From Streptomyces durocortorensis (GTDB lineage: Bacteria; Actinomycetota; Actinomycetes; Streptomycetales; Streptomycetaceae): a stretch of DNA of 64,000 nucleotides. Shown here one piece after another: positions 390 through 5,088 of the stretch. The notes beneath the pieces are model-generated. The model was not told the DNA's origin, made no database searches, and saw nothing but the letters and a program-made list of their open reading frames with translations. Every line of letters starts with the position of its first letter. Within the stretch, counting starts at the first letter, position 1. The stretch lies in the NCBI RefSeq assembly GCF_016901035.1, contig NZ_JAFEUF010000005.1, positions 1 to 64,000 of the forward strand, in the 5' to 3' direction. The position numbers and the translations under genes were made by a program.

Positions 390-923
390 TCAGCTTCCGG
401 TGGAGTAGAGCTGGACGTCGCCCAGCCGGGCGCGCAGGCGGACGAGCGAACGCGAGCACTGGCTCTTCACCGTGGACTCGCTGCACCGCAGCAGCGACGC
501 CACGGTCTCCACGCTCAGGTCGTCCCAGTAGCGCAGGACGACCATCGCCCGTGCTCGGGGCGGGAGTTCGGCGAGGAGGGCGAGCAGCGTGACCCGGAGG
601 TCGGCACCCGGCGCGGGATTGGGGTGCGGGCGGGGCGCGTTGTGGTTGTGGGCGAGCAGATCCCGTACGGAGCGGCGGCGTTCGGCCACGAAGGTGCGTA
701 CCAGCACGGTCTTGGCGTAGGCATCGAGGTTGTCCGCCCGGCTCGCCCTGCGCCAGTGCTGGAACAGCTTGGCGAGCGTCGTCTGCGTCAGGTCCTGCGC
801 GCCCTCGACGTCTCCGCACAGCAGGTAGGCCGTCCGGTACAGCCGGCGCTGCCCGGTCCGGGCGTACGCCTCGAACGCGGCGCGCTCGCCGTCCGCCATG
901 GCGGACTGAGCCCCTGCCGGCAT
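390..923 (-). CDS. SigE-family ECF RNA polymerase sigma factor
   Basis: A 177-residue ECF sigma factor that would direct RNA polymerase to stress-type promoters. Region 2 is seen around residues 14-80 (FEAYARTGQRRLYRTAYLLCGD, read in two parts, then QDLTQTTLAKLFQHW). Region 4 is near 110-165, with LPPRARAMVVLRYWDDLS followed by the helix-turn-helix CSESTVKSQCSRSL. The LCGD and VLRYWDDLS signatures are typical of the streptomycete SigE-type subfamily. ATG 923 was chosen because AGGAGG lies 4 nt upstream; a GTG at 950 is possible but has no ribosome binding site. The next gene is its membrane-bound neighbour. Confidence 0.9.
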   Translation of the reverse strand: MPAGAQSAMADGERAAFEAYARTGQRRLYRTAYLLCGDVEGAQDLTQTTLAKLFQHWRRASRADNLDAYAKTVLVRTFVAERRRSVRDLLAHNHNAPRPHPNPAPGADLRVTLLALLAELPPRARAMVVLRYWDDLSVETVASLLRCSESTVKSQCSRSLVRLRARLGDVQLYSTGS

Positions 924-1114
924 CCGCCCTCCTCTCTCCTCGACTCCCACCCCTTACAGAGCACCCGTGTGCCGAAAAGGTTGAAGAGAAGTGAAGATCA
1001 GTTCGAGGCGGTGTGCGCATCGGTCCACATGCCGGTCCACGCACCGGTCCGGGGGCGTCTCACCTGTCGGCGGATCCTGGTGCCCGCGCGAAGCGCTGTG
1101 CTAGAACAGCGCCC

Positions 1115-1186
1115 GTGACAGTCGATCGTTTTCTGGTGGAGTGCCTCCACATCGATCTCTGCCGCGTCTCCAGCGCATCCTGTTGA
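1115..1186 (+). CDS. Cysteine-rich leader peptide (23 residues)
   Basis: GTG at 1115 opens a 23-codon reading frame whose second half reads HIDLCRVSSASC. That matches the HxDLxRVxSxxC pattern of the putative leader peptides found upstream of actinobacterial sulfur and sulfonate genes. Three of the last 14 codons are Cys (two TGC, one TGT just before the stop), which is the arrangement expected of a cysteine-sensing attenuator. An internal GTG at 1136 would give a 16-residue peptide. Just downstream are alternative hairpins, then the remnant of a sulfonate-type ABC ATPase and a TauD-family dioxygenase, which fits a sulfur operon leader. The motif match is from memory; the function is inferred. 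Confidence 0.65.
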   Translation: MTVDRFLVECLHIDLCRVSSASC

Positions 1187-1225
1187 TGCCGGCCGCGGCA
1201 TCCTCGGCGATGCCCACGTGATGCC
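1185..1225 (+). promoter_or_regulatory. Mutually exclusive hairpins after the leader peptide
   Basis: GGCATC at 1197-1202 can pair with GATGCC at 1185-1190 (6-nt loop), which overlaps the leader stop codon, or with GATGCC at 1209-1214 (6-nt loop). A third GATGCC lies at 1220-1225. A ribosome at the terminal Cys codons would cover the first copy and push pairing to the second. This looks like an attenuator switch, but the stems are only 6 bp and no U-tract follows, so regulation of translation or Rho access is as likely as intrinsic termination. Confidence 0.4.
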
Positions 1226-1290
1226 TGCGCGCGTCCCCGGTACCAGCATCTTGAGCGTATTCCGCGCCATCAGTGCCTGCTGCGCCTTCG

Positions 1291-1482
1291 GCGTCCGTGG
1301 ACGAGGCGGTCTTCCTCGGCACCCGCGCGATCGTCCTCACCAACCGTCCGGGGACCGTCGCCCTGGACATCCCGATCGACCTGCCCCGCACCGGCGCCGA
1401 CCCCGACGAACTGCGCGGGCTGCCCGCGTACGCCGCCCTGCGCGCCGAGATCGGCACGGCCGTGCGCAACGCGGCCCGCTGA
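1291..1482 (+). pseudogene. C-terminal remnant of a sulfonate/nitrate-type ABC transporter ATPase
   Basis: In frame from about 1294 the translation reads SVDEAVFLGTRAIVL, then a segment with IPIDLPRTGADPDEL and ends RNAAR. This is the last ~60 residues of SsuB/TauB-like ATPases, starting just after the switch histidine of the THDVDEA motif. Walker A, signature and Walker B regions are missing, so the fragment cannot be an ATPase. No start codon fits the family, and the sequence upstream changes abruptly to unrelated DNA. The TauD-family gene 32 nt downstream is intact. The simplest reading is a deletion that removed the transporter genes and left the operon's leader and last gene. Confidence 0.75.
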
Positions 1483-1514
1483 TCCCGGTCCGTACACCCG
1501 AGAGGAGAAGAACC

Positions 1515-2441
1515 ATGACCGCCACCGCGACGACCCCCGTTCTGCGCGAGGCCCGCATCCCCGCCGACGGCCTGTACGAGGGCCCGCGCGAGCTGCGCCG
1601 GGTTCCGGAGGGCCGGCCCGACCGCCCGTACGAGCGCTTCCGGCTAATCCCGCTCGGCCGGGTCATCGGCGCGGAGATCCACGGCGTCGACCTGTCCCGC
1701 CCGCTGGAGGCGGCCGTGCGCGCCGAGCTGGACCGGGCGCTGCTGGAGTGGAAGGTGCTGTTCTTCCGGGACCAGCACCTCACTTCGCGGCAGCAGCGCG
1801 CGTTCGCCGGGCTCTGGGGCGAGCTGGAGACCAACCCGCTGCTCGCCACCGGCGACGACCCGGAGGTGGCCCGGCTCGACCGCACCGCCGTGCCCACCTT
1901 CGAGAACGTCTGGCACACCGACGTCACCTTCCGCGAGCGCCCCGCCCTCGGCGCGGTGCTCCAGCTGCGCGAGGTGCCTCCGGTGGGCGGCGACACGCTG
2001 TGGGCGGACATGGCGGCCGCGTACGACAATCTCGACCCGGAGGTGAAGGAGCGCATCGAGGGGGCGCGGGCGGTGCACGACTTCATCCCCGGCTTCGCCC
2101 GCTTCTACCCGCCGGAGCGGCTGGCGGCCCACCAGGAGGAGTTCCCGCCGGTCGAGCACCCGGTGGTGCGCCGCCACCCGGTCACCGGCCGCCGCACGAT
2201 CTTCGTCAACGCCTCGTTCACCACCCGGATCGTGGGTTTCGCGCAGGAGGAGAGCGACCGGCTGCTGCGGCTGCTGTTCCAGCAGGCGCACGCCCCGGAG
2301 TTCCAGGTGCGGTTCTCCTGGCGGGCGGGCGACGTCGCGTTCTGGGACAACCGGGCCACCCAGCACTACGCGGTCAACGACTACGCCCCGCACCGCCGGG
2401 TCGCGGAGCGCGTGGCCATCGCGGGCGACCGCCCTCACTGA
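1515..2441 (+). CDS. TauD/TfdA-family alpha-ketoglutarate-dependent dioxygenase
   Basis: A 308-residue Fe(II)/2-oxoglutarate dioxygenase of the taurine dioxygenase family; members release sulfite from taurine or alkyl sulfonates, though some act on other acids. The iron ligands are visible: the HxD pair at H134/D136 (WHTDVTF) and the distal histidine H284 (RATQHY), with R295 or R299 able to bind the 2-oxoglutarate carboxylate. Length is close to the family norm, with about 30 extra N-terminal residues. ATG 1515 has AGAGGAGAA upstream. It follows the ABC ATPase remnant and sulfur-type leader peptide, which supports a sulfonate substrate. The transporter itself is absent here. Confidence 0.88.
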   Translation: MTATATTPVLREARIPADGLYEGPRELRRVPEGRPDRPYERFRLIPLGRVIGAEIHGVDLSRPLEAAVRAELDRALLEWKVLFFRDQHLTSRQQRAFAGLWGELETNPLLATGDDPEVARLDRTAVPTFENVWHTDVTFRERPALGAVLQLREVPPVGGDTLWADMAAAYDNLDPEVKERIEGARAVHDFIPGFARFYPPERLAAHQEEFPPVEHPVVRRHPVTGRRTIFVNASFTTRIVGFAQEESDRLLRLLFQQAHAPEFQVRFSWRAGDVAFWDNRATQHYAVNDYAPHRRVAERVAIAGDRPH

Positions 2442-2471
2442 TCCCGGGGGTGCGGCTGCTTGAATGGAAGG

Positions 2472-3164
2472 GTGACCCGAGCCTCCCTGGAAAAGCAGCC
2501 GCACGAAGTCGCCTCGATGTTCGACGGTGTGGCGGCCAACTACGACCTGACCAACGACGTGATCTCGCTCGGCCAGGCCCGGCTGTGGCGCAAGGCGGTC
2601 GCGGCGGCGGTCGACGCCCGCCCCGCGCAGAAGATCCTCGACCTGGCGGCGGGCACCGCGACCTCCTCGCAGCCCTTCGTGCAGGCGGGCGCCTACGTCG
2701 TGCCCTGCGACTTCTCGCTCGGCATGCTCAAGGTCGGCAAGGAGCGCCACCCGTGGATGCCGTTCACGGCGGGCGACGGGATGAAGCTGCCGTTCAAGGA
2801 CGAGACGTTCGACACCGTCACGATCTCCTTCGGGCTGCGCAACATCCAGGACACCGAGGTCGCGCTCCGCGAGCTGTACCGGGTGACGAAGCCCGGCGGC
2901 CGCGTCGTGATCTGCGAGTTCTCCCAGCCGACCTGGACCCCGTTCCGCACGGTCTACACGGAGTACCTGATGCGGGCGATCCCGCCGGCCGCCCGCGCGG
3001 TGTCGTCCAACCCGGACGCGTACGTCTACCTCGCCGAGTCCATCCGCGACTGGCCCGACCAGCCCGCCCTCGCCGCACTGCTCCAGAAGGCGGGCTGGTC
3101 GAAGGTCGCGTGGCGCAACCTCACCGGCGGCGTGGTGGCCCTGCACCGGGCCACCCGCGCCTGA
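2472..3164 (+). CDS. menG: Demethylmenaquinone methyltransferase (UbiE/MenG)
   Basis: SAM-dependent methyltransferase for the last step of menaquinone synthesis, 230 residues from GTG 2472. The UbiE signature is clear: [11 protein letters not shown] near residues 23-33, SAM motif I DLAAGTA, the motif [22 protein letters not shown], and a C-terminal [12 protein letters not shown] 2472 gives the usual MTRASL N-terminus, but the GGAAGG lies directly against it; a TTG at 2460 would add four residues and cannot be excluded. It stands alone, 30 nt after the dioxygenase gene, and is close to other quinone and complex I genes. Confidence 0.93.
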
Positions 3165-3804: not shown

Positions 3805-5088
3805 GTGACCGAGCCCCTCTCCGAGCACAGCGCGGATGTCATCGTCGTCGGAGCGGGCCCTGCCGGCTCCACGACCGCCTACTACCTCGCCAAGGCCGGA
3901 CTCGACGTCCTGCTCCTGGAGAAGACGGCCTTCCCCCGTGAGAAGGTCTGCGGCGACGGGCTCACGCCCCGCGCCACGAAACAGCTCGTCTCCATGGGGA
4001 TCGACATCTCCGAGGAGGCGGGCTGGCTGCGCAACAAGGGCCTGCGCATCATCGGCGGCGGCGTCCGCCTCCAGCTGGACTGGCCGGAGCTGGCCTCCTA
4101 CCCGGACTACGGGCTGGTCCGTAAACGCGACGACTTCGACGAGCAGCTGGCCCGCCAGGCGCAGAAGGCCGGCGCCCGCCTCTACGAGCGCTGCAACGTG
4201 GGCGCGCCCATCCGCGACGAGCGCACCGGCCGCATCACCGGCGTCGAGGCGAAGGTCGGCGAGGAGAAGACCCCGCTCACCTTCCACGCCCCGCTCGTCG
4301 TCGCCGCCGACGGCAACTCCACCCGCCTCTCCCTGGCGATGGGCCTGCACCGCCGCGAGGACCGCCCGATGGGCGTCGCCGTGCGGACGTACTTCACCTC
4401 GCCCCGCCACGACGACGACTACCTGGAGTCCTGGCTGGAGCTGTGGGACAAGCGCGGCGCCGAGGACCGGCTGCTGCCCGGCTACGGCTGGATCTTCGGC
4501 ATGGGCGACGGCACCTCCAACGTCGGCCTCGGCATCCTCAACTCCTCCTCCGCCTTCAAGGAGCTGGACTGGCGCGAGGTCCTCAAGGCCTGGTGCGCCT
4601 CGATGCCGGAGGACTGGGGCTACACCCCGGAGAACATGACGATGCCGATCCGCGGCGCGGCCCTCCCGATGGCCTTCAACCGCCAGCCGCACTACACCAA
4701 GGGCCTCCTGCTGGTCGGCGACGCGGGCGGCATGGTCAACCCGTTCAACGGCGAGGGCATCGCGTACGCCATGGAGTCCGGCCAGATCGCCGCCGACGTC
4801 ATCGTCCAGGCCCACGCCCGCGCCACCCCCGCTCAGCGCGAACTGGCCCTGAACAACTACCCGAAGGTGCTCAAGGAGACCTACGGCGGCTACTACACGA
4901 TGGGCCGCGCCTTCGTGAAGCTGATCGGCAACCCGAAGATCATGAAGATCGCCACGGAACGCGGCCTGACCCACCCGCTGCTGATGAAGTTCACGCTCAA
5001 GATGCTGGCCAACCTGACCGACCCGCAGGGCGGCGACGCGATGGACCGCATCATCAACGGGCTGTCGAAGGTGGCCCCGAAGGCCTGA
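3805..5088 (+). CDS. Geranylgeranyl reductase family flavoprotein (MenJ-like)
   Basis: A 427-residue FAD-dependent oxidoreductase. The N-terminal dinucleotide motif is VIVVGAGPAGSTTAYYLAKAG, shown here as GAGPAG at residues 15-20; EKVCGDGLTPRA follows, and a second FAD motif LLLVGDAGGMVNPFNGEGI lies near residue 310. Relatives saturate isoprenoid chains; the mycobacterial member MenJ reduces one double bond of the menaquinone tail. Streptomyces make partly saturated menaquinones, and this gene sits between menG and nuo, so menaquinone-tail reduction is the best inference. GTG 3805 has GGGAGA at a good distance and gives the usual MTEPLSEH start. It could instead act on other prenyl lipids. 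Confidence 0.85.
   Translation: MTEPLSEHSADVIVVGAGPAGSTTAYYLAKAGLDVLLLEKTAFPREKVCGDGLTPRATKQLVSMGIDISEEAGWLRNKGLRIIGGGVRLQLDWPELASYPDYGLVRKRDDFDEQLARQAQKAGARLYERCNVGAPIRDERTGRITGVEAKVGEEKTPLTFHAPLVVAADGNSTRLSLAMGLHRREDRPMGVAVRTYFTSPRHDDDYLESWLELWDKRGAEDRLLPGYGWIFGMGDGTSNVGLGILNSSSAFKELDWREVLKAWCASMPEDWGYTPENMTMPIRGAALPMAFNRQPHYTKGLLLVGDAGGMVNPFNGEGIAYAMESGQIAADVIVQAHARATPAQRELALNNYPKVLKETYGGYYTMGRAFVKLIGNPKIMKIATERGLTHPLLMKFTLKMLANLTDPQGGDAMDRIINGLSKVAPKA

Follow-up and report, generated by a model that had tools for sequence, protein, structure and literature searches.

Among described systems, tauABCD of E. coli comes close to the locus analyzed here. The importer proteins of an intact Streptomyces relative, man185, find their best matches among Tau models, and the TauD-family dioxygenase of the locus belongs to PF02668. 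Unlike the E. coli operon, the Streptomyces genes run in the order C-A-B-D, and the best NCBIfam equivalog scores stay below their cut-offs. In the window, that is, the whole stretch of 64,000 nucleotides of Streptomyces durocortorensis DNA that was analyzed, the importer is deleted, and the encoded TauD differs from the E. coli enzyme at four positions that we take to be taurine contacts.

A second point of comparison is the short reading frame ahead of the operon. Cysteine-rich leaderless uORFs of mycobacteria were reportedly also the subject of work by Canestrari in 2020. The portion considered here of the paper by Shell (2015, PMC4633059) describes such uORFs in mycobacteria. Like these, the window leader is a short, probably leaderless ORF whose final part contains Cys codons and that precedes sulfur genes, but it is of the HIDLCRVSS type with scattered Cys codons instead of a Cys run, and its regulation is putative. 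Candidate cysteine leader peptides were put forward for Mycobacterium, Propionibacterium, and Bifidobacterium (Seliverstov 2005, PMC1262725); the part of that paper at hand names no Streptomyces cysteine leader. According to the same part, these leaders share with ours the Cys codons near the stop and the lack of an obvious terminator, but their Cys codons form runs, and the genes behind them are cys or cbs genes. The S. lividans leader peptides, as far as the available part of their description goes (PMC8079986), include several that are leaderless and have a hairpin behind them, in some cases with no U-rich terminator. The window leader resembles them in its probable leaderless start and in the candidate hairpin on its 3' side, whereas none of the eight S. 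lividans leaders listed is given there as cysteine-dependent. The −10-like TAGAAC of the window mismatches the last base of the TAnnnT motif, as this motif emerges from the consulted parts of PMC4633059 and PMC8079986. No literature on the present locus was found among the listed titles and abstract openings of CC-licensed PMC papers.

A deletion scar between leader and tauD

The window is part of a 7.96 Mb draft assembly in 616 contigs (G000). Among the best 80 of 565 confirmed relatives of its dioxygenase, the best named matches come from Streptomyces of the S. griseus/S. globisporus group. The locus contains the following features:

390..950, minus strand: putative sigma-factor-like gene flanking the operon
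1102..1107, plus strand: −10-like TAGAAC, 7 nt upstream of the leader GTG; candidate promoter
1115..1186, plus strand: Cys-ending leader ORF of 23 codons, from GTG 1115 to TGA; peptide MTVDRFLVECLHIDLCRVSSASC
1197..1214, plus strand: inverted repeat GGCATC...GATGCC just 3' of the leader stop; candidate attenuator hairpin
1280..1296, plus strand: deletion junction between operon 5' UTR and tauB, from alignments to intact relatives
1297..1482, plus strand: tauB (ABC ATPase) remnant, from in-frame alignment to man185 tauB
1515..2441, plus strand: complete tauD, TauD-family Fe(II)/2-oxoglutarate dioxygenase (PF02668, 224 bits)
2460..3164, plus strand: methyltransferase gene that we take to be menG-like; flanking anchor that adjoins the operon in griseus-type relatives

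In intact relatives the order is leader-tauC-tauA-tauB-tauD, flanked as in the window by the sigma-factor-like and the menG-like gene. The complete operon with these flanks is present in man185 (L033), PTY087I2 (L031), S. griseus NCTC13033 (L035), S. cyaneofuscatus (L036), and S. microflavus (L037). The sigma-factor-like neighbor lies on the same side in all five, and the window copy is 95% identical to that of man185 over 186 aa (tblastn). Window positions 900–1296 align to 1730–2112 of the man185 locus, and the window from 1296 on aligns to man185 from 4830 on; the man185 DNA missing at this junction comprises tauC, tauA, and most of tauB. The left edge of the junction is uncertain by about 15 nt or more, and the alignment to G703 ends at 1250. 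The distance from the leader stop to the ATG of tauD is 328 nt in the window versus about 3.05 kb in the intact genome G720, which amounts to a net loss of about 2.7 kb.

A sequence-only reading of this DNA had proposed that a deletion moved the leader close to the dioxygenase while leaving both intact and only some 60 codons of the ATPase behind. The alignments support each of these points: the relatives hold the transporter genes at the site where the window lacks them, the leader and tauD frames are whole, and the ATPase tail consists of the final 61 codons plus stop (first a V codon at 1297–1299, stop at 1480–1482). Homology to the ATPase sets in abruptly at about 1296. Since the start codon nearest to the fragment, GTG 1273, lies upstream of this homology, the fragment lacks a conserved start, again in line with that reading. 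The search for displaced copies covered TauA and TauC; TauB was left out because ABC ATPases are too common. Elsewhere in the G000 assembly, it returned no TauA or TauC copy above 35% identity (best: 32% for TauA, 28% for TauC). With collinear relatives holding the missing DNA at this very site and no close copy of TauA or TauC found elsewhere in the assembly, the deletion scar is real.

The tauD gene has its own ribosome-binding site, its ATG being preceded by GAGAGGAGAAG. An open frame that begins at GTG 1218 also reaches tauD in frame (1218–2441). This frame is probably a chance product of high-GC DNA; otherwise it may endow TauD with an N-terminal extension.

Leader, enzyme, and importers

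The leader peptide, with HIDLCRVSSASC at its C-terminal end, scores 25.8 bits (E 5.8e-06) against the model NF042934 "putative leader peptide", just under the cut-off of 27. The same peptide precedes the intact operons of man185, PTY087I2, and S. griseus NCTC13033. The motif TAGAA[AC] is found 6–7 nt upstream of the leader GTG in 23 of the 24 loci compared; the 24th (McG3), on a contig that begins inside the operon, gave no match. A scan of window positions 950–1560 for sigma-70 consensus sites returned none. The conserved motif upstream of the GTG suggests a leaderless transcript, which would probably start at this codon. The GGCATC/GATGCC hairpin after the leader stop is predicted when 15 distinct griseus-type sequences are folded to a consensus, while the minimum-energy fold of the window itself favors a different pairing. 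In four sequences, the fold energy of the 42-nt stretch behind the leader is within the range of mononucleotide shuffles, so that it is position and consensus that make the hairpin a candidate. At gathering thresholds, Rfam had no match in the window. A cysteine-responsive attenuator, which would lower the expression of downstream genes through translation of the leader when cysteine is plentiful, is a putative role for this region.

The window TauD is a member of its family, with 224.4 bits against PF02668 (gathering cut-off 27), and aligns to solved taurine dioxygenases; against the taurine dioxygenase equivalog NF007104 it reaches 296.6 bits, below the cut-off of 313. Residues H134, D136, H284, T161, and R295 align to E. 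coli TauD H99, D101, H255, T126, and R266, which we take to be the ligands of Fe and 2OG. The taurine contacts of the E. coli enzyme are presumably H70, Y73, N95, S158, and R270. At these positions, the alignment shows four changes (H70 to N107, Y73 to L110, N95 to E130, S158 to G193) and one conserved residue (R270 as R299), a pattern that does not predict taurine specificity of the E. coli type. The stretch LETNP in the contact region is common to the window TauD, man185, and the free-standing homologues at L038, L048, and L110. Judged by these residues, the substrate of TauD may be a compound other than taurine.

The importer had been taken for an Ssu-type system. That a transporter was lost is correct, and the gene for its binding protein is gone as well, but the intact copy in man185 points to a taurine-type system. 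The man185 binding protein scores 234.4 bits with TIGR01729 (taurine) versus 148.1 with SsuA_fam, both under the respective cut-offs of 304.25 and 163.5. Binding protein, permease, and ATPase all have Tau models as best matches, and the best solved match of the binding protein by sequence is a taurine-binding protein. These scores are closer to "tau", which therefore seems a better name than "ssu", though the cut-offs of the best models are not reached.

The description of TauD as an enzyme without its importer proved too strong. A second transporter was to be sought elsewhere in the genome, and two other binding proteins of the SsuA family score above the TIGR01728 cut-off: one on contig C306, with a permease nearby and downstream of what by eye is a cys-type cluster, and one at the very start of contig C229, which truncates it. 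A third candidate (C114) falls below the same cut-off. Sulfonate import is thus probably not lost altogether in this strain, as far as gene content can tell. Moreover, among the best 80 of 565 confirmed TauD relatives, 69 loci have no tauCAB homologues alongside, 10 have them (in one of these, L034, the contig end cuts before tauC), and one is the scar of S. globisporus. Of the 69, four loci have an upstream stretch shorter than 3 kb, and four show only a distant ATPase match, 2.7–4.4 kb away; in the three of those loci with genes called (L038, L048, L110), no importer-like neighbor was seen by eye. By this count over the best 80 of 565 relatives, importer-less tauD is common in the genus.

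At about position 4984 of locus L203 (G165:C113), ahead of a second transporter of the SsuA family, lies a further ORF in the style of the leader (HIDLLRVASAACC). Among the binding proteins of the window genome, the one on C229 corresponds to this transporter.

Recurrence and age of the losses

Further genomes were surveyed with a probe that is independent of the transporter genes, the leader DNA (window 1090–1245). We searched 392 genus genomes and 394 family genomes, in overlapping sets; a second genus draw of 371 genomes returned the same 16 genomes. Short partial leader matches were set aside in 2 of the 16 matching genus genomes (G021, G246) and likewise in 5 of the 20 matching family genomes (G021, G246, G434, G449, G459), along with a second short match in G154. 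The 8.5–9 kb stretches around these short matches contained no tauD match. There remain 22 leader-bearing genomes, 14 from the genus set and 8 more from the family set. The genome of the window, which seeded the search, is counted among them; the other 21 were fetched and typed.

All four genes, tauC, tauA, tauB, and tauD, are present without stops inside the tblastn match in 16 of the 22 genomes. In six of these 16 (G056, G619, G663, G283, G393, G111), the TauC match begins only at residue 30–58, probably as a consequence of diverged N-termini; a more sensitive search extended the TauC of G056 to nearly full length. Transporter deletions occur in four genomes, namely that of the window, S. 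globisporus JCM 4378 (G241), G044, and G029. G662 carries a 1-bp frameshift in a G run of tauA (L220, near 4340) in an otherwise complete operon, which may be a sequencing error. In G023 (L136, G023:C1:793000-802000), leader and tauCAB are present with no tauD match adjoining, and the contig has a tauD homologue (76%) at a distance of about 215 kb. The sequence-only reading had missed this recurrence; the scar is real, but it is one of several, as three other genomes have similar losses with different breakpoints.

In S. globisporus, the 5' untranslated stretch is retained as far as the beginning of tauC, and of tauB some seven codons remain at the 3' end, whereas the window has less untranslated DNA and more tauB. 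Since these remnants are not nested, neither is simply derived from the other. In G044, about codon 71 of tauC is joined to about codon 157 of tauB, and in G029, tauB is kept from about codon 60; both remnants are frameshifted. The aligned ends overlap by 0–2 nt in the window (versus G720), S. globisporus, and G044, and by 5–9 nt in G029. Within 30 nt of both breakpoints in intact relatives, the longest common word has 5 bases for the window, 5 for S. globisporus, and 11 for G044, compared to a chance expectation with a median of 6 and a 95% value of 8. A word of 5 bases is within chance, and the window deletion therefore looks illegitimate, which we regard as probable. The 11-base word of G044 exceeds the 95% value and is seen on both sides of the junction in the intact relative G105; this deletion may have used a short repeat.

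A first tree, from 6 kb of DNA downstream, seemed disturbed, with very long branches for G044 and G710, and was replaced by a tree of menG and the downstream reductase. Here S. globisporus groups with the intact-operon genomes G720 and G710 and with the frameshifted G662 (support 0.993). The window falls outside this group; the wider group has a support of 0.957, and the branching order within the group is weak (0.513). Because intact genomes group with S. globisporus to the exclusion of the window, these two losses look separate.

Compared with G720, the tauB remnant of the window has 7 synonymous and 3 nonsynonymous changes (5 and 2 for the pair G720–G662) and gives no sign of relaxed constraint. 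With the remnant undecayed, most of this divergence is older than the deletion, and the deletion is young. The ratio of nonsynonymous to synonymous divergence in tauD is 0.31 versus G720 and 0.15–0.21 versus four other relatives, with 0.07–0.27 in pairs that include no deletion genome. After so young a deletion, an intact tauD is expected either way and is no proof of selection.

Explanations for the losses

We consider it highly probable that a young deletion of about 2.7 kb, one case of recurrent loss of a redundant importer, has left tauD behind the leader. The ancestral locus, leader-tauC-tauA-tauB-tauD, would have been an operon for taurine-type sulfonate import and desulfonation, probably transcribed from the leader GTG. 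A recent, probably illegitimate deletion would have taken tauC and tauA completely and tauB down to its last 61 codons, and would have left promoter, leader, and hairpin in place, with tauD as the first complete gene behind the leader. The tauD gene would still be transcribed from the leader promoter and would be subject to cysteine-dependent attenuation if this mechanism acts on transcription, and any sulfonate used by TauD would enter by another route, such as an SsuA-family transporter encoded elsewhere. Similar losses with other breakpoints in three related genomes fit weak selection on a redundant importer. Recurrent neutral loss, that is, routine gene decay repeated several times, is the most likely process.

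A draft genome in 616 contigs raises the question of whether 2.7 kb of a complete operon were lost in assembly. Such an artifact is very improbable, given that intact G720 has no common word of more than 5 bases near the two breakpoints, that the search for TauA and TauC found nothing displaced with more than 35% identity, and that a comparable loss in G044 is found inside a contig of 7.27 Mb. We give equally little credence to the inheritance of the short layout from one shared deletion without separate losses. Four genomes do have a short layout, and since deletions can grow, even non-nested ones could in principle extend one older deletion, but each of the four remnants holds parts that are missing from the others, and complete-operon genomes group with S. 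globisporus in the tree. This tree evidence against an older shared deletion reaches the window and S. globisporus only.

Selection could also have driven the losses, if TauD has a role independent of the importer, for example on internal sulfonates or other substrates, and gains from direct control by the cysteine leader. Four deletions among 22 leader-bearing genomes, all with leader and open tauD kept, agree with this idea, as does the lack of an adjacent importer of this kind at 69 of the 80 best tauD loci. However, the 22 genomes hold five transporter disruptions versus one absence of tauD, and with 920 transporter codons versus 308 in tauD (roughly 3:1), this is about as expected from an unbiased process. 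In addition, the remnant in the window is undecayed, so that retention of tauD is uninformative, and G023 keeps the importer with no tauD alongside. Repeated selected orphaning of this kind is therefore unlikely in our estimate; an adaptive version of the loss is conceivable but unsupported. The genomes provide a natural series in which one operon, behind the same kind of leader, occurs with and without its importer genes. This series could be used to test whether a leader controls distal genes once the intervening genes have gone, and whether TauD of Streptomyces needs its adjacent importer; apart from these uses, the case is one of routine gene decay.

G044 was left out of all dating because its flanks are far more diverged than its operon. 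At this locus (L133), the TauD protein is 94% identical to that of the window, compared to 84% for the flanking MenG, and the sigma-like gene is incomplete. This hints at an exchange of the G044 operon by recombination.
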